DNA from: Ruania albidiflava DSM 18029
GTDB lineage: Bacteria > Actinomycetota > Actinomycetes > Actinomycetales > Beutenbergiaceae
Assembly (NCBI RefSeq): GCF_000421225.1
Contig: NZ_ATWL01000003.1
Coordinates: forward strand, 124,001-188,000
DNA: 64,000 nucleotides
Direction of reading: 5' to 3'
The translations under genes were made by a program, and so were the position numbers. The stretch's first letter is position 1. Each line of letters starts with the position of its first letter. Below are positions 15,046 to 64,000 of this stretch, one piece after another. The notes under the pieces are model-generated. The model worked only from the letters and a program-made list of their open reading frames with translations. It was not told where the DNA came from and did not search any database.

Positions 15046-15129
15046 AGGGGCATGCCCAGGGGGTGGGCGCCGTTAGCCTGGATGAACACCGCCATGACCG
15101 CATGCGGTCCGGCCAGTGAGGAGCACGAG

Positions 15130-17658
15130 ATGTTCGAGAGATTTACCGACCGAGCCCGTCGGGTAGTCGTCCTCGCCCAAGAAGAGGCGCGGATGCTTAA
15201 CCACAACTACATCGGCACCGAGCACATCCTGCTCGGCCTCATCCATGAGGGCGAAGGCGTTGCCGCGAAGGCGTTGGAGTCGCTGAACATCTCCCTGGAA
15301 GCAGTACGCCAGCAGGTGCAGGAGATCATCGGCGAGGGCCAGCAGGCCCCGAACGGGCACATCCCGTTCACCCCGCGCGCCAAGAAGGTGCTGGAGCTGT
15401 CCCTGCGCGAGGCGCTGCAGCTCGGCCACAACTACATCGGCACCGAGCACATCCTGCTCGGCCTGATCCGTGAAGGTGAGGGCGTCGCCGCCAAGGTGCT
15501 CACCAAGCTCGGCGCCGACCTGAACCGGGTGCGCCAGCAGGTCATCCAGCTGCTGTCCGGCTACCAGGGCAAGGAGCCGGTCTCCGCTGGTGGCCCGGCC
15601 GAGGGCACCCCGTCCGGGTCTGCCGTGCTGGACCAGTTCGGCCGCAACCTCACCCAGGCGGCCCGGGACGTGAAGCTCGACCCGGTGATCGGGCGTGCCA
15701 ACGAGATCGAGCGGGTGATGCAGGTGCTCTCCCGGCGCACCAAGAACAACCCGGTGCTGATCGGTGAGCCCGGCGTCGGCAAGACGGCGGTGGTGGAGGG
15801 CCTGGCCCAGGACATCGTCCGCGGCGACGTGCCCGAGACGCTGAAGGACAAGCAGCTCTACACCCTCGACCTCGGTGCCCTGGTGGCCGGCTCCCGCTAC
15901 CGCGGTGACTTCGAGGAGCGGCTGCGCAAGGTGCTCAAGGAGATCCGCACCCGCGGCGACATCATCCTGTTCATCGACGAGATCCACACGCTCGTGGGTG
16001 CCGGGGCCGCCGAGGGCGCCATCGACGCCGCCAGCATCCTCAAGCCGATGCTGGCCCGCGGCGAGCTGCAGACCATCGGTGCCACCACGCTCGAGGAGTA
16101 CCGCAAGTACATCGAGAAGGACGCCGCCCTGGAGCGCCGGTTCCAGCCGATCCAGGTGGCCGAGCCCACGCTCGCGCACACCATCGAGATCCTCAAGGGA
16201 CTGCGCGACCGGTACGAGGCGCACCACCGGGTGACCATCACCGATGACGCCCTGGTGGCGGCGGCCAACCTCGCCGACCGGTACGTCAACGACCGGTTCC
16301 TGCCGGACAAGGCGATCGACCTGATCGACGAGGCCGGTGCCCGGCTGCGCATCCGCCGGATGACCGCCCCACCGGAGCTGCGGGAGCTCGACGAGCAGAT
16401 CGCCGAGACCCGCCGCGCCAAGGAGTCCGCGATCGACGACCAGGACTTCGAGCGTGCCGCCCGGCTGCGGGACGAGGAGAAGACCCTCTCGAGCACCCGC
16501 GCGGAGAAGGACAAGGCCTGGAAGTCCGGTGATCTGGACAACGTCGCGGAGGTGGACGAGGAGCTGATCGCTGAGGTCCTCGCCAACTCCACCGGCATCC
16601 CGGTGTTCAAGCTCACCGAGGAGGAGTCCAGCCGGCTGCTGCGGATGGAGGACGAGCTGCACAAGCGGATCGTCGGCCAGGACGCGGCGGTCAAGGCGCT
16701 CTCCCAGGCGATCCGGCGCACCCGTGCCGGCCTGAAGGACCCGAAGCGCCCCGGCGGCTCGTTCATCTTCGCTGGGCCCACCGGCGTCGGGAAGACCGAG
16801 CTGGCCAAGGCGCTCGCGGAGTTCCTGTTCGGGGACGAGGACGCGCTCATCCAGCTGGACATGAGCGAGTACTCCGAGAAGCACACCGTGTCCCGGATGT
16901 TCGGGTCCCCGCCCGGGTACGTCGGCTACGAAGAGGGTGGCCAGCTCACCGAGAAGGTGCGCCGCCGTCCGTTCTCCGTGGTGCTGTTCGACGAGGTGGA
17001 GAAGGCGCACGCGGACATCTTCAACTCGCTGCTGCAGATCCTCGAGGACGGTCGTCTCACCGACGCCCAGGGCCGCGTGGTGGACTTCAAGAACACCGTG
17101 ATCATCATGACCACCAACCTCGGCACCCGGGACATCGCCAAGGGGCTGATCACCGGGTTCCAGGCCGGCGGTGACCTGTCCACCAGCTACGACCGGATGA
17201 AGACGAAGGTGAACGAAGAGCTCAAGCAGCACTTCCGCCCCGAGTTCCTCAACCGGGTGGACGACGTGATCGTGTTCCCGCAGCTGTCCCAGGAGGAGAT
17301 CCACCAGATCGTGGACCTGATGGTGGACAAGCTCTCCGACCGCCTGGCGGACAAGGACATGGACATCGAGCTCACCGAGGCCGCGCACCAGCTGATCGCC
17401 GAGCGTGGGTACGACCCGGTGCTCGGGGCCCGGCCGCTGCGCCGCGCGATCCAGCGGGAGATCGAGGACCAGCTCTCGGAGAAGATCCTCTACGGCGAGC
17501 TGCACGCCGGCCAGAAGATCATCGTGGACGCCACCGGCGAGGGCCTGCTCGGCGAGTTCACCTTCACCGGTGTGGACAAGCAGAAGGACGAGAAGGAGCC
17601 GCTGGCAGTCGGTGCGGGCTCGGCGCCGCAGCTGCCGGAGGCCTCCTCCGGCGAGTAG
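15130..17658 (+). CDS. clpC: ATP-dependent Clp protease ATP-binding subunit ClpC
   Basis: An 842-residue Hsp100/Clp unfoldase. It has an N-terminal double Clp-N repeat (1-145, each with [13 protein letters not shown]), AAA+ domain 1 (Walker A GEPGVGKT, Walker [15 protein letters not shown]), the UVR-like/middle coiled coil (about 415-475, REEE/RARR-rich) and AAA+ domain 2 ([27 protein letters not shown]). The C-terminal ~90 residues form the D2 small domain, which meets ClpP. It feeds unfolded substrates to ClpP1P2 and is usually essential in actinobacteria. GAGGA precedes the ATG at 15130; the earlier in-frame ATG at 15052 is not supported by homology. A possible ClgR box is upstream. Confidence 0.96.
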
Positions 17659-36172: not shown

Positions 36173-36246
36173 GGTGCTCCTGTCACGCGTTCGGATGGGC
36201 CGCTGCCTGACGGACGGATCCGACCGGCTCCGGTGCCCGCCCGTAG

Positions 36247-44874: not shown

Positions 44875-47800
44875 ATGACCGTCGCTTTCTCGTCCCGAGG
44901 GCGGCCAGTAGCACTGCTTGCGGCAGCGGCCACTGCCGTCACCACCGGGCTGGTGGTGAGCGCACCCGCCACCGCAGCGCCTCAGGACCCGGCTGATGCC
45001 GGCACCTCCGAAGCGCAGCAGGAGCCGCTGCGCTTCGACTTCGGTCCCGGCACCGTGGCGGACGGCTACGCCCAGGTCACTGCCGACAGCACCTACAGCG
45101 AGGAGACCGGGTTCGGTTTCACCGGGGACGCAGAGGTGACCGGCGCCGACCGCGGCGGCGAGGACCCGATCAAGGGGGACTTCCTCACCCCCGCTGAGGC
45201 GACCTTCGTGGTCGACCTGCCGAACCTGGACTACACGGTCTCCCTGGTCGCCGGGGACTCGGAGGAGGCCACGCAGATCGCCATCTCCAGCGAGCAGATG
45301 CAGAAGGTGCAGACCGCCGACCGCGGGCCCGGTGAGTACCTGGAGATGAACTACGACATCGCCCTGGTGGACGGGCAGATGTCCTTCACCTTCACCGGCG
45401 ACGCGCCGAACATCAACGCCATCGTGATCACCGCTCAGGAGGAGCAGAGGCCGGGCGATGTGCCCACCGCGTTCCTCACCGGTGACTCCACGATGCAGAC
45501 CTACGACGAGTACTGGGAGCCGCAGGCCGGCTGGGGCCAGGTGTTCGACCAGTTCGTGCCCGAGGGTGTGGTGGTGGACAACCAGTCCATCGGTGGCCGC
45601 AGCTCGAAGACGTTCGTCACGGAGGGCCGGCTGGACGCAGTGCTGCTCGAGGCCCGGCCCGGCGACTACGTGTTCGCGCAGTTCGGCCACAACGACGCCA
45701 CCCAGTCCCGTCCGGAGCGCTACACCACCCCCGAGGAGTACCAGGGCTACCTGCGGATCTTCGTCGAAGGTGCCCGGCAGCGCGGCGCCACACCGGTCCT
45801 CATCACCCCGGTGAACCGGCTGGACTACGACGCCGAGACCGGCAAGTTCAACGAGAGCTTCCCCGAGTACGTGGCCGCGATGAAGGAGGTCGCGGCAGCC
45901 TCCGACGTCGACCTCATCGACCTGTCCGCCTCCTCGCGGGCCTACCTGGACGAGATCGGCCCGGAGATGGCCGAGTCGGTGTTCCTGCACGTACCACCGG
46001 GCGTGTACCCGAACCGCCCCGAGGGCACCCAGGACGACACCCACTTCCAGTCCTACGGCGCCATCCAGATGGCCCGGCTGGTCGCGCTCGACCTGGCCGA
46101 GCTGGACCTGCCGGTCTCCGAGCTGGTGCAGGTGACCGAGCCGGACGAGCTGCCCGCAGCGCCCGCCGGCGTGGCGGTGCAGACCGTGACCAGCGCCTCG
46201 GTCACCCTCACCTGGGACGCTGTGGACGGCGCGGACGTCTACCGCGTGTTCCGCAGCGAGGCTGGGGCAGACGAGTTCACCCTGGCCGGGACCTCCACTC
46301 TTGACCAGGCGCTCATCGGCGGTCTGGAGGAAGGGGTGGCCTACGACTTCCGGGTCAGTGCGATGAACGGCCTCGGCGAGGGCGTGGTGAGCGAGACCGT
46401 CAGCGCCACCACCCGTTCGGCGCAGTACAAGTTCGACTTCCAGCCCGCCGGTGCACCGGTCGCTGACGGCTACACCGAGGTGAACCGCAGCACCCTCTAC
46501 ACCCCCGAGCTCGGGTATGGCCTCGTGGATGCCGAGGGGATGGACGACCGGGACCGCGGCGACGGAGACGATGATGTCGCCTGCGACTTCGTCATCGAGT
46601 TCGGCGGCCGGTACGAGTTCCTCGTCGACCTGCCGAACGGCAGCTACTCCGCCGCCACGGTGGTGGGTGACCTGCTCGGCAGCGTGCGCACGAACATCGA
46701 GATCGAGGGTCGTGACTATGGCGGGCAGAGTGCCCGCGAGGGCCACACGGAGAAGGTGCACGAGGACATCGTGGTCACCGACGGCCAGCTGAACCTGGTC
46801 ATCACCGGCCAGACCGCGCACCTGAACGGCTTCACCCTCACCCCGATCCTGGTGGCACCGGAGTCGGTGCAGCTGGAGAACCTGACCATGGAGGGCGCCA
46901 CCGGCCAGGTGGAGCTGTCCTGGCCGGAGGCGCCGGAAGCGGAGTCCTACCGGGTGTACCGCACCGGACCGGACGGCGAGGCGACGCTCGTCGGCGAGAC
47001 CGAGGGCACCACGCTGACCGACGACGAGGCGCACGCCGGCGTCACCTACTCCTACGCCGTCACCACGGTGACCGCCAGCGGGGAGGAGTCCTTACCCTCG
47101 GTGAGCCTGGACGTCGAGGTGGTCGACCCCGATGTGGCAGTGCCCGCCGCGCCCACCGGGCTCGCCTACACCTCGGTGACGAAGAACGCCGTCGAGCTGG
47201 TCTGGGACGAGAGCACCGAGGCGCTGTTCTACCTGGTGGAGCGTGCCGAGGACACCGACGGTGACTTCACCGTCGTCGGCCGGACCGAGGACGCCACCTT
47301 CACCGACGAGACCGTGCTCACCACGATCGAGTACTACTACCGCGTGGTGGCAGTGAACGCCGGCGGCGCCTCCGAGCCCTCGGCGGTGATCGAGACTCCC
47401 GGTGAGACCGAGCTGGTCCGGGACGCCGAGTACCTGGACCGCTCCCCGGTGGCGGTGACCCAGGAGCAGGGCGTCTACCTCGGCTGGCGGATGCTCGGCC
47501 TGGACCCGGCCGGGATCGCGTTCCACGTCTACCGCGACGGTGAGCGCATCACCGACGAGCCGATCACCGACAGCACCAACTACGTCGACACCGGCGGCGC
47601 AGCCGACTCCGTCTACCGGATCTCCCAGGTGCTCGACGACGGGGAGAGCTGGGCCACCGACGAGTTCAGCCCGTGGGCCGAGCAGTACCTGGACGTGCCC
47701 CTGGAGAAGCCGGCCGACGCCTACACCAAGGACGGCCAGCCCTACTCCTACTCCGCCGGCGATGCGTCCGTGGGGGACGTGGACGGTGACGGCGAGCTGG

Positions 47801-49845
47801 AGATCATCCTGATCTGGAACCCCTCGAACGCCAAGGACAACTCCCAGGCCGGCTACACCGGCAACGTGTACGTGGACGCCTACAAGCTCGACGGCACCCG
47901 GTTGTGGCGCATCGACCTCGGGGTGAACATCCGTGCCGGGGCGCACTACACCCAGGCGATGGTCTACGACCTGGACTCCGACGGCCGGGCCGAAGTGGTG
48001 ATGAAGACCGGTGACGGCACGGTCGACGGCCAGGGCACCGTGATCGGCGATGCCGATGCCGACTGGCGCAACTCCAGCGGCTACATCCTCACCGGACCGG
48101 AGTTCCTCACCGTCTTCGACGGCGAGACCGGTGCGGCGATCGACACGGTTGACTACGTCCCGCCGCGCGGGGACGTGGAGTCCTGGGGCGACGGCTACGG
48201 CAACCGGGTGGACCGGTTCCTGGCTGCAGTGGCCTACCTGGACGGGGAGCACCCGAGCGTGATCTTCTCCCGGGGCTACTACACCCGAGCGGTGGTCGCC
48301 GCGTTCGACTTCGACGGCGAACAGCTCACCAGCCGGTGGGTGTTCGACTCCTCGGATCCGGGCAACGGCGACTACGCCGGACAGGGCAACCACAACCTGT
48401 CCGTGGGGGACGTGGACGAGGACGGCAAGGACGAGATCGTGTTCGGCTCGGCCACCATCGACGACGACGGCACCGGTCTGTACTCCACCGGCCTGGGTCA
48501 TGGGGACGCCCTGCACCTGGGCGACCTGGACCCCAGCCGTGCCGGCCTGGAGGTGTTCGCCGTGCACGAGGACATGGGCGCCTCCGGGAACCTCGGTTCC
48601 ACGTTCCGGGATGCCGCCACCGGTGAGGTGCTGTGGTCCACACCGGCTGAGGTGGACACCGGCCGCGGTGCCGCTGCGGACATCGACCCGCGGCACGAGG
48701 GTGCCGAGGCGTGGAGCGTGGGCGGTGACGCCGCCTGGAACTCCCCCGAGGGGTACCTGATGAGCGCCGACGGGGAGCAGATCAGCACCGACATCCCGGC
48801 CGCGAACTTCGTCACCTGGTGGGACGGCGACCTGCTCCGGGAGATCACCGACCACGAGTTCGACGAGACCAGCCGCACCGGAGAGCCGGTCGTGTACGAG
48901 TGGGACTACGAGAACAACGAGCAGGTGGAGATCTTCCGACCCGAGGGTGTGCTCAGCAACAACGACACCAAGGGCAACCCCTCGCTGCAGGCGGACCTGT
49001 TCGGCGACTGGCGCGAAGAGCTGGTGTACCGCACGGAGGACTCCTCCGCGCTGCGCATCTTCACCACCACCGACGTCACCGACACCCGGTTGCGCACCTT
49101 GATGTCCGACCCGGTCTACCGGCTCGGCATCGCCTGGCAGCTCACCGGCTACAACCAGCCCCCGCACACCAGCTACTTCCTGGGTGAGGGGATGGAGACA
49201 CCGGCGGCGCCGTCGATCGCCTACACCACCGAGCCGCCGGCGCCCGAGCCGGTGCCCGGTCCGGCGACCAGCGCTCCGGCACGTGGTGAGCTGTCCACCA
49301 CCAGCGGGTGGGCGTATGGGTTGGCTGATGGGAACTACACGGTCTCGATGAACCTGTGGTGGGGTCAGAACGCCAACGAGGTCCGGGTGTACGAGAACGG
49401 TGAGCTGATCGGCTCCTCGCTGCTGACCGACGACACCCCGGCAGCCCAGGAGTTCTCAGTGGACGTGTCCGGCCGTGCGAACGGCAGCTACACCTACACC
49501 TGTGAGCTGGAGAACCAGCACGGGGTGAGTGAGTGTGCGCCGGTGACGGTGCAGGTGACCGATGCTGAACCGGGGCAGGCGGTGCTCAGTGCGGACAACT
49601 GGGACGGCGACGGGCAGTACACGGTCACGGCCAACCTCTGGTGGGGGACCAATGCCACCGAGTACCGGCTGTATGAGGACGGTGAGCTCATCGACTCCCA
49701 GGAGCTGACCGCGCACACCCCGGACGCGCAGTCGGCGGTCACCGAGATCAGCGGCCAGGAGCCGGGCACGTACACCTACGTGGCCGAGCTGGTCAACGAT
49801 GCTGGGTCGACCGAGACCGAGGCGATCGAGGTGGACGTGGACTGA
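44875..49845 (+). CDS. secreted multidomain CE12 acetylesterase - PL11 rhamnogalacturonan lyase
   Basis: A 1656-residue secreted protein. It has a Sec signal peptide (1-35, ending ATAAPQ), a malectin/CBM35-like domain (about 45-190) and a CE12-type rhamnogalacturonan acetylesterase (195-425; GDSTMQ nucleophile, GHND and DDTHFQSYG). These are followed by Fn3 (430-514), a second malectin-like domain (516-660), two Fn3 domains (661-842), a PL11 lyase (850-1445; GDASVGDVDGDGELEIIL, Ca-binding repeats, HYTQAMVYDLDSDG) and two tandem Ig-like domains with WWGxNAxExRxYE (1462-1656). One polypeptide thus removes acetyl groups and cleaves the RG-I backbone. Codon 740 is a rare TTA. No cell-wall anchor is seen. 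It has its own regulated promoter. Confidence 0.92.
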   Translation: MTVAFSSRGRPVALLAAAATAVTTGLVVSAPATAAPQDPADAGTSEAQQEPLRFDFGPGTVADGYAQVTADSTYSEETGFGFTGDAEVTGADRGGEDPIKGDFLTPAEATFVVDLPNLDYTVSLVAGDSEEATQIAISSEQMQKVQTADRGPGEYLEMNYDIALVDGQMSFTFTGDAPNINAIVITAQEEQRPGDVPTAFLTGDSTMQTYDEYWEPQAGWGQVFDQFVPEGVVVDNQSIGGRSSKTFVTEGRLDAVLLEARPGDYVFAQFGHNDATQSRPERYTTPEEYQGYLRIFVEGARQRGATPVLITPVNRLDYDAETGKFNESFPEYVAAMKEVAAASDVDLIDLSASSRAYLDEIGPEMAESVFLHVPPGVYPNRPEGTQDDTHFQSYGAIQMARLVALDLAELDLPVSELVQVTEPDELPAAPAGVAVQTVTSASVTLTWDAVDGADVYRVFRSEAGADEFTLAGTSTLDQALIGGLEEGVAYDFRVSAMNGLGEGVVSETVSATTRSAQYKFDFQPAGAPVADGYTEVNRSTLYTPELGYGLVDAEGMDDRDRGDGDDDVACDFVIEFGGRYEFLVDLPNGSYSAATVVGDLLGSVRTNIEIEGRDYGGQSAREGHTEKVHEDIVVTDGQLNLVITGQTAHLNGFTLTPILVAPESVQLENLTMEGATGQVELSWPEAPEAESYRVYRTGPDGEATLVGETEGTTLTDDEAHAGVTYSYAVTTVTASGEESLPSVSLDVEVVDPDVAVPAAPTGLAYTSVTKNAVELVWDESTEALFYLVERAEDTDGDFTVVGRTEDATFTDETVLTTIEYYYRVVAVNAGGASEPSAVIETPGETELVRDAEYLDRSPVAVTQEQGVYLGWRMLGLDPAGIAFHVYRDGERITDEPITDSTNYVDTGGAADSVYRISQVLDDGESWATDEFSPWAEQYLDVPLEKPADAYTKDGQPYSYSAGDASVGDVDGDGELEIILIWNPSNAKDNSQAGYTGNVYVDAYKLDGTRLWRIDLGVNIRAGAHYTQAMVYDLDSDGRAEVVMKTGDGTVDGQGTVIGDADADWRNSSGYILTGPEFLTVFDGETGAAIDTVDYVPPRGDVESWGDGYGNRVDRFLAAVAYLDGEHPSVIFSRGYYTRAVVAAFDFDGEQLTSRWVFDSSDPGNGDYAGQGNHNLSVGDVDEDGKDEIVFGSATIDDDGTGLYSTGLGHGDALHLGDLDPSRAGLEVFAVHEDMGASGNLGSTFRDAATGEVLWSTPAEVDTGRGAAADIDPRHEGAEAWSVGGDAAWNSPEGYLMSADGEQISTDIPAANFVTWWDGDLLREITDHEFDETSRTGEPVVYEWDYENNEQVEIFRPEGVLSNNDTKGNPSLQADLFGDWREELVYRTEDSSALRIFTTTDVTDTRLRTLMSDPVYRLGIAWQLTGYNQPPHTSYFLGEGMETPAAPSIAYTTEPPAPEPVPGPATSAPARGELSTTSGWAYGLADGNYTVSMNLWWGQNANEVRVYENGELIGSSLLTDDTPAAQEFSVDVSGRANGSYTYTCELENQHGVSECAPVTVQVTDAEPGQAVLSADNWDGDGQYTVTANLWWGTNATEYRLYEDGELIDSQELTAHTPDAQSAVTEISGQEPGTYTYVAELVNDAGSTETEAIEVDVD

Positions 49846-51541: not shown

Positions 51542-51578
51542 CCTAGACCCAGGATCCAGCCCGGATCCTGGGTCTAGG
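51542..51578 (+). terminator. perfect 16-bp hairpin after binding protein 1
   Basis: CCTAGACCCAGGATCC (51542-51557) is the exact complement of 51563-51578, with a 5-base loop; a flanking CAAGC/GCTTG pair extends the stem. It ends the transcript of the orphan binding-protein gene. No U-tract follows. Confidence 0.75.
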
Positions 51579-51677: not shown

Positions 51678-51753
51678 GACGGGGGTGCGGCGCAGGTCGG
51701 ATGCTCGACCGAGCCGGGTGACGGGCTCCGGTGCGTCGTCTCACCAACGTGAG

Positions 51754-51765
51754 TGAATCGATTCA
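51754..51765. promoter_or_regulatory. regulon operator 7, perfect palindrome
   Basis: TGAATCGATTCA, perfectly palindromic, about 95 bases after the PL4 -10 and 70 before its start codon. It occupies the same leader context as operator 4 (followed by CGA and GAAGATC). Confidence 0.75.
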
Positions 51766-51834
51766 TAGTCGAGGAAGATCGCACGGCACGCGCCACGATC
51801 CTTCTGACACCGCGATGAGAGAAGGGTCGTGCCC

Positions 51835-53280
51835 ATGACCGATGTACCTGAGATGTCCCGCCGGACGTTCGGCAGGCTGGCCGGAGTGACCGCCTGCGCG
51901 CTCCTCCCACTGGCGGTGCCGAGCCGCGCTGCGGCGCAGGAGGCGCCCGCCGTCCAGGAGACGGACAGCCAGATCATCGTCGACAACGGCGAGATAGAGC
52001 TCACCATCGACAAGTCCAACGGCCGCGCCCGCTCGCTCGTCTACGGCGGACGCAACCTGGTCGGTCGAGGTAACTATGACATGAACAGCACCCGCGAGGG
52101 TTCGCGACTCCCGCTGCCTGGCGGGGAGACGACGTTCAGCATCCGGCAGGAGGCGGACTTCGTGGACGTCGCCTTCACCCATCCGCCCAGCAACGACATG
52201 CCGTGCTGGCTCACCCGGCACCACATCGTCAGGTCCGGGGAGACCGGCGTCCATCTCGCCACGAGCTTTGAGCACCCCGCCGATCTGCACGGGTTCCGCA
52301 CCGACCAGCACCGTTACGTCGTCTACACCGCAGGTGACACCTTCACCCACGCGTGGGTGGAGGACGACCCGATCGGCGAGCCGTGGCGCCAGGCGGCAGC
52401 CAAGATGCCCACACCGCAGGAGATGAGCCAGGCGGCCGTGGTCATGGACGCCACCTACGACCTGGCCGGTACCGGCAGCGAGTACCCGCGCCGCTACTAC
52501 ACGAAGTACGACTGGGCGGTGTACATGCAGGAGCACGGGCTGCACGGGCTGCACGGGCTGTACGGCAACGGCTACGGGATGTGGGCAGCGCTGCCGAACC
52601 TCGAGGCGTTCAGCGGTGGCCCGGTGCGGCAGGACCTGATCCTGCACCAGCGCACCGGAGGGCCGGTGCTGCTGGTAGAGCCGCACGCCACGCACTACGG
52701 CGCACCACCGATCCGGGTCGAGGCCGGCCAGCCCTGGCAGAAGACCTATGGCCCCTACTACGTGCACCTCAACCGCGGTGACGATCCAAGGCAGCTCCAC
52801 GAGGATGCAGCGCAGTACGCCCGGTTCGATGCGCATGCGGACCTCTACGACCGCCTCGCCCTGCCTGGCTGGACGCCGCGCGCCGACCGGTCCACGGTGA
52901 GCGGCGTTGCCAGGATCCCGGGAGTGCGCCAGTGGGACGGCGCCCTCGCGGTCCTCTCCGACAACCGCACACCGATGCAAGACACCGTCCTGGGCTACAA
53001 CTACTGGACCAGCATCGGCCGCGGTGGCCGGTTCGAGATCGACCACGTACGCCCTGGCACCTACCGGCTCACCCTGTACGGCGACGGGATCTGGGGTGAG
53101 CACGTGATCGACGACGTCCAGGTCGGCGCCGGACAGCACGTGCGACTGGGCGCGATGCACTGGGAGACGGAGGAGCACGGTCGCACCGTCTTCCAGATCG
53201 GGACGCCGAACCGCACCTCGGTCGAGTTTCGCAACGGTGCCCAGTTCCGGCAGTACGGCCTCTACCAGCAGTTCCACTAG
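51835..53280 (+). CDS. PL4 rhamnogalacturonan lyase, N-terminal part, ended by in-frame TAG
   Basis: Codons 1-481 of a PL4-family rhamnogalacturonan lyase. A Tat-type signal (SRRTFGRLAG, hydrophobic core, then AAAQ) directs it out. The beta-sandwich catalytic region includes TKYDW (expected catalytic Lys) and DLILHQ (expected His), and the Fn3-like domain 2 runs from about 355. The frame stops at TAG (53278-53280) right after QYGLYQQFH, but the next codons continue in frame with DFPDGVAYTVGESD, the start of PL4 domain 3. A 9-bp unit CACGGGCTG is repeated three times at 52534-52560 (HGL x3) in the catalytic region. The ATG at 51835 fits the AGAGAAGGG site better than the GTG at 51829. Confidence 0.85.
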   Translation: MTDVPEMSRRTFGRLAGVTACALLPLAVPSRAAAQEAPAVQETDSQIIVDNGEIELTIDKSNGRARSLVYGGRNLVGRGNYDMNSTREGSRLPLPGGETTFSIRQEADFVDVAFTHPPSNDMPCWLTRHHIVRSGETGVHLATSFEHPADLHGFRTDQHRYVVYTAGDTFTHAWVEDDPIGEPWRQAAAKMPTPQEMSQAAVVMDATYDLAGTGSEYPRRYYTKYDWAVYMQEHGLHGLHGLYGNGYGMWAALPNLEAFSGGPVRQDLILHQRTGGPVLLVEPHATHYGAPPIRVEAGQPWQKTYGPYYVHLNRGDDPRQLHEDAAQYARFDAHADLYDRLALPGWTPRADRSTVSGVARIPGVRQWDGALAVLSDNRTPMQDTVLGYNYWTSIGRGGRFEIDHVRPGTYRLTLYGDGIWGEHVIDDVQVGAGQHVRLGAMHWETEEHGRTVFQIGTPNRTSVEFRNGAQFRQYGLYQQFH

Positions 53281-54465
53281 GACTTCCCGGACGGAGTCGC
53301 CTACACCGTCGGGGAGAGCGACGAGTCCGACTGGAACTACATCCAGTACCAACGCGCCTACCGGGTCGAGGCGCCGAGCGGCACTGTGCTGCCCGAAGGA
53401 GCCGAGGGTGTCTACCTGTTCGATTTCGGGAGCGGCAGCAGTCCCCTGGCCGCCGGCTACGAGCGTGTGGCCGATGACCTGCTCTACTCCGCTGGCCAGG
53501 GCTTCGGGCTCGACAAGAGCGTGGACTCCCGCTCTCGGGACAGTGGCAGCGAGCTGCTGCGGGACTTCACCGTCGGGGCCGACTACACCTTCTCGGTGGA
53601 CCTGCCGGACGGGGAGTACGCCCTCACCGTGCACTCGGGGGACGCGATCGCGGCGAACCAGTCGCAGGTCTCGGTCGATGGCGGCCCGCCGGTGGATCTG
53701 TCTGCCGATGCTGGCGAGTACGCCACCCACACTGAGCAGGTGACAGTCCAGGGTGGTCGCCTGGACCTGACCGCCAGCGGCGACGGACGGATCAATGCGG
53801 TAGAGATCCTCGCCGCTGATGCTGCTGTGCCGGTGCTGGAGTCCCTCAGCACGGACGGTGCCGAGCTGGTGCCGGAGTTCAGCCCGTTCCGCTCGGACTT
53901 CGCCGTGGACCTGGCCCCAGGCGTCGAGTCGGTCACCATCCAGGCAATCGGCAAGGACGGTGAGCCGGTGTCCGTGGCGGGTGAGCCGGTTCCGGACAGC
54001 GGGCTCACCGTGCCGCTGAGCGGGCGCCGCAGCGAGATCGAGATCCAGGTCGGCGCTGGCGACGGGGAGCCGACCACCTACCGCCTGCACGTCACCACCC
54101 AGGAGCCGCCCTGGCAGATCCTCTTCGATCTGCCCAGCGCGCCTGCCCCGCAGGTGAAGGCGACCCTCTCGGTCTGGCTGGCCGCCTGGGCGATGGGTGC
54201 GGCGCTGCCTGTGCCGCCGGAGGAGAGCAACCTGACCATCTCGGTGAACGACACTCCGTTCGTCTGGACGTTCAAGCCGGACGATGCCCGCGGGGCGACC
54301 TACCGCAGCGCGTGCGGTGGTCGGGTCTACCGTCGGGAGATCGCATTCGACGGCGCGCTGCTGCGTAGCGGCCGTAACGAGATTACAGTGCAGATCAACA
54401 AGGGTGCAGCCCACTTGTTTAACGAGGCGGCCTACGACGCCATCCGGCTGCAGATCGCCGACTGA
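53281..54465 (+). pseudogene. PL4 lyase, C-terminal part beyond the amber codon
   Basis: This stretch of 394 codons is in the same frame as the lyase before it and has no further stop. It holds the beginning of PL4 domain 3 (DFPDGVAYTVGESD..DWNYIQYQ), an inserted malectin/CBM35-like module (about 53410-53810, VYLFDFGSG..), a cadherin-like beta-sandwich (about 53820-54100), then the rest of the PL4 carbohydrate-binding domain (PPWQILFDLP to IRLQIAD). The only in-frame ATG-like start is a CTG/GTG near 53386 without a good ribosome site, so it cannot easily be a separate gene. Either the lyase is a recent pseudogene, the TAG is read through, or it is a sequencing error. Confidence 0.8.
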
Positions 54466-61930: not shown

Positions 61931-62989
61931 ATGAGCAGTGCGCTGACCTGGCACAACCTCGGTGAACCCCGCGGCCGCGGCTGGCCCGCCGAGGCGATGG
62001 ACCGCAGGTACGACCGGCTGCCCGCCCACGCCCGCCACCTCGTGCCCGAGCTGGTCTGGGGTCTGAGCCGGCACGCCTCGAGCCTGTTCCACGAGTTCGA
62101 GACCGACGCCACCGAGCTGCACGCGCGCTGGGAGATCCGTGGCCCGGAGATGGTGCTGGGACACATGCCGGCCACTGCGACCGCCGGTATCGACCTGTAC
62201 GCCCACAGCCCGGCAGGCACGCTGCGCTGGGCCGGTTCGGCCGCGCCCACTGGCCTGCAGAGCGAAGCCGTCATCGCCGAGAACCTGGCGCCCGGCCGGC
62301 GCCGGTACCGGCTCTACCTACCGTTGGTCAACCAGCTCGCCGACATCACCCTGGGCCTGCCAGGCGGGACCGACCTCACCGTGGTGGGACCTGGGGGGCA
62401 GCTGCCGGTGGTGTACTACGGCACCTCGATCATCCACGGCATCGCCGCATCCCGTACCGGGATGAGCCTGCCGGCGATCCTCGGGCGCCGGCTCGGCCGG
62501 GACGTGGTCGGGCTCGGGTTCTCCGGCAACGGGAAGATGGAGACCGCGCTGGCCGAGCTGCTCGCCGAGCTCGACGCCGCGGTGTACGTGGTGGACTGCC
62601 TGCCGAACATGGACGCCGACCTGGTCCGCGAACGCGCTCTGCCGTTCCTGCGCACGCTGCGCGCGGCCCGCCCCGCGACACCGATCCTGCTGGTGGAGGA
62701 CCGCTCGTACACCAACGCGTGGCTCCGGCCGGACCGGCAGGAGGCGCACGCAGCCTCCCGCCGCGAGCTGCGCACCGCCGTCGAGACGTTGCTGGCGGAG
62801 GGGGAGACGAACCTGCACCTGCTGGCACACACCGGGCTGCTCGGCGAGGACGACGAGGGCACAGTGGACAGCTCGCACCCGACCGACCTCGGCTTCCTGC
62901 GGATGGCCGACCGGGTGACGCCGGTGCTGGCCGACCTGCTTGTGGCCGGCCAGCACCGCCCGCTCACCGCTGACCGAGTCCCTGGATGA
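61931..62989 (+). CDS. SGNH-type esterase in the RG-I operon
   Basis: A 352-residue protein with an N-terminal beta-sandwich (about 1-150) and a C-terminal SGNH hydrolase fold. Nucleophile motif GTSIIHG, block II GFSGNGKME, block III DCLPNM and terminal SSHPTD are visible. There is no signal peptide, so it is probably a cytoplasmic deacetylase acting on imported acetylated RG-I fragments, in contrast to the secreted CE12 module. The ATG at 61931 follows AGGAGATGTG; upstream sequence is not protein-like. The 3' end overlaps the convergent PL11 gene by 26 bases. Confidence 0.86.
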   Translation: MSSALTWHNLGEPRGRGWPAEAMDRRYDRLPAHARHLVPELVWGLSRHASSLFHEFETDATELHARWEIRGPEMVLGHMPATATAGIDLYAHSPAGTLRWAGSAAPTGLQSEAVIAENLAPGRRRYRLYLPLVNQLADITLGLPGGTDLTVVGPGGQLPVVYYGTSIIHGIAASRTGMSLPAILGRRLGRDVVGLGFSGNGKMETALAELLAELDAAVYVVDCLPNMDADLVRERALPFLRTLRAARPATPILLVEDRSYTNAWLRPDRQEAHAASRRELRTAVETLLAEGETNLHLLAHTGLLGEDDEGTVDSSHPTDLGFLRMADRVTPVLADLLVAGQHRPLTADRVPG

Positions 62990-64000
62990 GGTAGCCGAGC
63001 CGCGCCGCCGCGTCCGCTGACAGCCAGCCCTTGTCGATACTGCGCTCCAGCGCCCGGACGAACCGGTCCGCGGCCCGCGCCGCCTGCTCGTGGCGCCCGG
63101 CGTCCAGGTGCCGCTGTGCCGCGGACACTGCGTTGCCCAGCTGGGCCGCCGCGGGCCGGTCCACCTGGCCGGCAGCGATCGCCGAGTCCACTGCCGTAGC
63201 CAGGTCCTCCAGCGCGCCCGGCAGCCACACCGCGGGCGTGGGCACGTCACGGACGTCCATGTCCGAGGCGAGGTAGTAGCTCGGCCAGGAGGGCTGGTTG
63301 TAGGCGGTCTGCTGTCGGGCCACCTCCGCCCGGTACTGCACGTCGTGCATCAGCGTGGTCAGTGCCATGTCGGTGACCTCTGTGGACAGGTAGATGCGGA
63401 TCGCGTCGGAGTCGCCGGTGCGCACCAGCAGCTCCTCGCGCCAGTCGCCGAAGATGTCCGCGACCAGGCTCGGGTTGCCCTTGGTGTCGTTGTTCGTCCG
63501 GGTGCCCTCGGCCACCAGCAGCGTGCCGTTCTCCCAGTCCTCGATGGTGGGGGTCTCCTCCTGCGCGCCGTGCACCTGCTGCGTGCTGCCATCAGCCGCC
63601 CAGTGGATGGACTGGTTCGTGCCCGGTGCCGCATCAGCCAGCAGTGCACCGTCAGCGCTGCGCAGGTCCCAGGCCCAGGTCTCCAGGCCCGGTGTGGTGC
63701 GATCGACGTCACCGACCATCCCGCGCCCGGTGTCCTGCCCGGAGTAGGCGCCGTAGAGCACCTCACCGGTCGCCGCGTCGCGCAGGGCGTAGCCGTACGG
63801 GGCCCACGCTGCGCCCTCGTGCACGGTGTAGATCTCCAGCCCGGGACGGTTCGGGTCGATGTCGGTCACGTGCATCGCGTCGCCGTGCCCGAGCCGAGCC
63901 TCCGCACCCGGGTCGGCGCTCTCCTCCGGCAGCGTGTCGAAGGAGCTGTACAGCAGGCTGCCGTCGTCGTCGATCGTGGCCGATCCGTAGATGATCTCGT
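62964..64000 (-). CDS. PL11 rhamnogalacturonan lyase, C-terminal part (cut by window edge)
   Basis: The 3' part of a second PL11 lyase runs leftwards; its 5' end lies beyond 64000. Signature motifs of the seven-bladed PL11 propeller are seen: LGHGDAMHVTDIDPNRPGLEIY, NNDTKGNPSLVADIFGDWREELLVR and AYNQPSWPSYYLASDM. These match the PL11 module at 48.5-49.2 kb. The tail is different: a helical ~75-residue FIMAH/FIVAR-like domain (LEDLATAVDSAIAAGQVDRPAAAQLGNAV onward). The upstream frame is open to the window edge. It was probably secreted; the signal peptide is not visible. Control elements lie outside the window. Confidence 0.9.
   Translation of the reverse strand, partial: EIIYGSATIDDDGSLLYSSFDTLPEESADPGAEARLGHGDAMHVTDIDPNRPGLEIYTVHEGAAWAPYGYALRDAATGEVLYGAYSGQDTGRGMVGDVDRTTPGLETWAWDLRSADGALLADAAPGTNQSIHWAADGSTQQVHGAQEETPTIEDWENGTLLVAEGTRTNNDTKGNPSLVADIFGDWREELLVRTGDSDAIRIYLSTEVTDMALTTLMHDVQYRAEVARQQTAYNQPSWPSYYLASDMDVRDVPTPAVWLPGALEDLATAVDSAIAAGQVDRPAAAQLGNAVSAAQRHLDAGRHEQAARAADRFVRALERSIDKGWLSADAAARLGYLIQGLGQR

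Follow-up and report, generated by a model that had tools for sequence, protein, structure and literature searches.

A PL4 rhamnogalacturonan lyase gene in the window (the whole 64-kb stretch of DNA analyzed here) is interrupted by one in-frame TAG codon, which probably represents a recent nonsense substitution that has left a likely young pseudogene, its loss presumably buffered by two PL11 lyases. Positions 51835-54465 translate as 481 residues, a TAG (53278-53280), a further 394 residues and a TGA, with no second internal stop, and this 876-codon frame runs without any frameshift. Its features are the following.

51835-53277, + strand: upstream half, comprising an RR-type (Tat-like) signal region, the catalytic domain, FnIII-like domain II and the first 31 residues of domain III
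51922-52368, + strand: match to Rhamnogal_lyase (PF06045), residues 30-178
52533-52565, + strand: in-frame 9-bp tandem repeat (HGL) in the catalytic domain, with one more copy than in all nine long relatives
52945-53145, + strand: PL4 domain II (PF14686), residues 371-437
53185-53364, + strand: PL4 domain III (PF14683), first segment, profile positions 1-56, with the TAG inside it
53278-53280, + strand: in-frame TAG stop at residue 482 (from translation), where relatives have Glu, Asp or Gly codons
53281-54465, + strand: downstream half (394 codons and the TGA), which retains coding constraint
53413-53778, + strand: galactose-binding-like domain AGA-YXIM_GBD (PF21254), nested in domain III
53842-54096, + strand: Cadherin-like domain (PF12733), nested in domain III
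54106-54450, + strand: PL4 domain III (PF14683), second segment, profile positions 53-160

The initial annotation had described a PL4 gene broken by a single in-frame amber codon, and this description holds: the halves share one frame, PL4 domains lie on either side of the TAG, and the nine long relatives are unbroken. Behind a signal region in which a twin-arginine motif can be read from the sequence, the catalytic domain, FnIII-like domain II and CBM-like domain III follow in PL4 order. All three family profiles (PF06045, PF14686 and PF14683) are present, the last of them split by the stop and by the nested domains. The protein also shares with its relatives the conserved stretch TKYDW...HGLYG...GGPVRQDL...HATHYG, in which the Lys of TKYDW and the His of HATHY are invariant; these are candidate counterparts of the catalytic Lys/His pair of the fungal PL4 enzyme. 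Domain III falls into two parts (residues 451-510 and about 757-872, counting one residue at the stop), and residue 482 lies inside the first of these and not at a domain border. The protein thus differs from the PL4 rhamnogalacturonan lyase in having a stop within domain III and, together with nine relatives, in having two domains nested there. When solved structures were searched by sequence, the YxiM-like nested domain was matched and no PL4 structure was. An AlphaFold2 model of the read-through protein (ten sequences) reached a mean pLDDT of only 51, too poor for use, and was left out of both the placement of the stop and the fold searches. The domain-insertion architecture of domain III, seen here and in the nine relatives L015-L023, is itself worth a structural look; in the relatives of L075, L076, L078 and L079 domain III is continuous.

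The initial annotation had thought it unlikely, for want of a good start codon, that the downstream half forms a gene of its own, and it does not. The earliest in-frame start past the TAG, a GTG, lies 35 codons further along and has no well-placed Shine-Dalgarno sequence. A scan of the window found nine stops with coding-like open frames on both sides. In eight of them a start codon comes no more than 18 codons later, the usual arrangement where one gene follows another; the stop at 53278 is the only one with no start close by. The openness of the downstream half is far beyond chance, being reproduced in 1 of 5000 mononucleotide shuffles. An antisense frame over the PL4 gene (51763-54414, minus strand, 883 aa) was dismissed as a side effect of the GC-rich coding sequence.

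Relatives were collected by scanning one genome per species and then by class- and order-wide searches. Nine long relatives (L015-L023; Tessaracoccus, Agromyces, Isoptericola, Microbacterium and Allorhizocola) have the full architecture and are 59-72% identical over the upstream half; the wider searches added four that are shorter or more distant and have no nested domains; identity to the PL4 protein among the 13 is about 40-72%. The shortest relatives, which have no nested domains, have frames of 646-665 codons. The PL4 gene was not found in 23 other species of the family examined, and the comparison is therefore made without any close relative. Alignment of the PL4 homologues across the site (with the column placed via the neighboring FPxG motif in the four added relatives) gives a sense codon in 13 of 13, all of them uninterrupted there, and the stop only in the window's gene. 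The uninterrupted genes L015-L023 resemble this one in their full-length architecture, and L015 and L020 partly share its neighboring genes, but all nine encode an amino acid at the site and lack one of the HGL repeats found here. In the column, GAG occurs in seven relatives and GAC in three, while GAT, GGG and GGC are each found once. Since most are acidic and none encodes Gln, the simplest origin of the stop is one substitution in a codon for an acidic residue, and the change from CAG to TAG suggested earlier is not supported.

Constraint on the two halves, assessed by pairwise dN/dS and by separate codon trees, is alike: dN/dS versus relatives is about 0.3 on both sides of the TAG, near the value of an intact relative, and GC3 is 0.89 upstream and 0.865 downstream. 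Among columns that are otherwise invariant, the window's protein departs at 6 of 197 upstream and at 8 of 134 downstream; the difference is small, and the intact relative L015 shows a similar tendency. Because the downstream half retains both purifying selection and codon bias, the stop is either recent or a consensus error. Stop-creating changes make up 2.7% of the possible downstream substitutions, a rate at which a second stop becomes likely after about 0.09 neutral substitutions per site; about a fifth of codons are one step from a stop, so a single nonsense event needs no special cause. As in a young pseudogene, the disabling change is absent from the orthologues. The claim that the loss is recent is consistent with the dN/dS values and with the lack of a second lesion, which would also be expected if the stop were a base-call error. 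Judged from the sequence, the change is recent or not real, and the divergence from the nearest relative is too large for good dating.

Because no second stop or frameshift accompanies the TAG, a true mutation and a base-call error would look the same in the sequence. An error in sequencing or consensus, with the gene in fact intact, is a real though unlikely alternative. A single base is at stake in a gene that is otherwise whole and under normal constraint, and the source genome is a 60-contig draft assembly. Against this, the site contains no homopolymer or repeat, where many sequencing errors fall, and the scan for stops between coding-like open frames revealed no further interrupted gene in the window; neither is a strong point.

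If instead, as we think probable, the substitution is genuine, the ancestral gene would have encoded an intact, exported PL4 rhamnogalacturonan lyase (activity predicted) of an RG-I utilization locus, in which one recent nonsense substitution then struck domain III. With translation ending at the TAG, the product would be 481 residues long. It would comprise the catalytic domain, the FnIII domain and some 31 residues of domain III, but not the galactose-binding-like and cadherin-like domains nested there. Both parts of domain III are present in all 13 relatives, so the domain seems to be needed, and for the same reason the stub probably harms folding: with an unfinished beta-sandwich the product is probably unstable or poorly exported, since a Tat substrate whose folding is incomplete would be a bad candidate for export. 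The backbone on which PL4 enzymes act is also the target of PL11 enzymes, and the PL4 gene may therefore be dispensable, its loss offset by the two intact PL11 lyases of the cluster. We infer here that the base call is true, that the product has lost its activity and that the PL11 enzymes make up for the loss. The counterpoint is that the catalytic half is complete, which leaves room for some activity in a truncated enzyme. In its stronger form, in which the 481-residue product still works as a lyase and has shed only an accessory C-terminal region, this alternative is improbable: the catalytic and FnIII domains are indeed whole upstream of the stop, and upstream constraint is retained, but the stop cuts into domain III itself instead of marking its border, and even the relatives with frames of 646-665 codons keep both domain III parts.

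The initial annotation had also raised readthrough of the TAG, yielding enzymes with and without the carbohydrate-binding region. Low dN/dS around bacterial in-frame stops has been taken to argue that such stops are functional (Belinky et al., 2021; PMC7918605), and the gene resembles those cases in having one stop with downstream constraint kept; however, that survey required the same stop in at least two genomes, to exclude errors, and here it occurs in one. Programmed or regulated amber readthrough to short and long enzymes is very improbable because the stop is shared by 0 of 13 relatives, none of the 44 tRNA matches in the genome (family search plus short stretches) has a CUA anticodon, PylS was not found in the genome, RF1 is present with its frame open, TAG terminates other genes in the window (e.g., the Clp ATPase gene at 15052-17658), and RNA folding at the site is unremarkable (z -1.75 downstream, 0.24 across). 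Literature searches turned up no report of this gene, nor any of natural amber readthrough among enzymes of this kind. Low-level natural readthrough, by weak near-cognate decoding, may nonetheless occur; that a real and leaky stop gives mostly short lyase and a little full-length enzyme, and so acts as a new, strain-specific switch of enzyme dosage or isoform in RG-I degradation, is likewise very improbable. Two clean isoforms are unlikely in any case, since a stop inside domain III removes the nested domains and leaves a stub, and the proposal of two enzyme lengths differing by the carbohydrate-binding region is not supported. The interruption has the look of a commonplace loss-of-function mutation of recent date, or of a base-call error, rather than of a programmed two-length device.

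The PL4 gene sits in an RG-I/rhamnose utilization cluster that encodes L-rhamnose isomerase, a bifunctional rhamnulose-phosphate aldolase, an alpha-L-rhamnosidase-like enzyme, a GDSL-PL11 fusion, an alpha-L-fucosidase-like enzyme, two solute-binding proteins and a second PL11. The two intact PL11 lyases flank it: the GDSL-PL11 gene is at 44875-49845, and the second PL11 frame begins outside the window and ends at 62964. The GDSL-PL11 protein has 1656 residues and comprises a GDSL esterase, galactose-binding-like domains, FnIII domains and the PL11 lyase. A second broken lyase, suspected at 62964-63875, proved to be the intact PL11 gene running past the window edge. One further feature lies upstream of the PL4 gene.

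51753-51766, + strand: near-perfect palindrome GTGAATCGATTCAT, resembling a LacI-type operator (motif search)

Related palindromes occur at 36246, 37149, 44009 and 44841 (nine matches over the two strands, corresponding to five sites, with 0.14 expected), and the position of five TGAATCGATTCA-like palindromes by RG-I and rhamnose genes suggests one shared regulator. Of the promoter and operators earlier described as intact, the operators are consistent with the palindrome at 51753 and its four related sites; no sigma-70-like promoter match was found upstream of the PL4 gene. Between a solute-binding-protein gene and the PL4 gene there is a very strong, perfect 16-bp hairpin without a T run (51542-51578, z -5.95), probably a terminator.

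The comparative data thus correct a possible claim of recoding, in that the stop is isolated and has no decoding machinery behind it, and they serve as a warning that automatic annotation here would give a truncated enzyme or two genes. At most, the interrupted gene would document that a pectin-utilization cluster is at an early stage of losing one of its several RG-I lyases.
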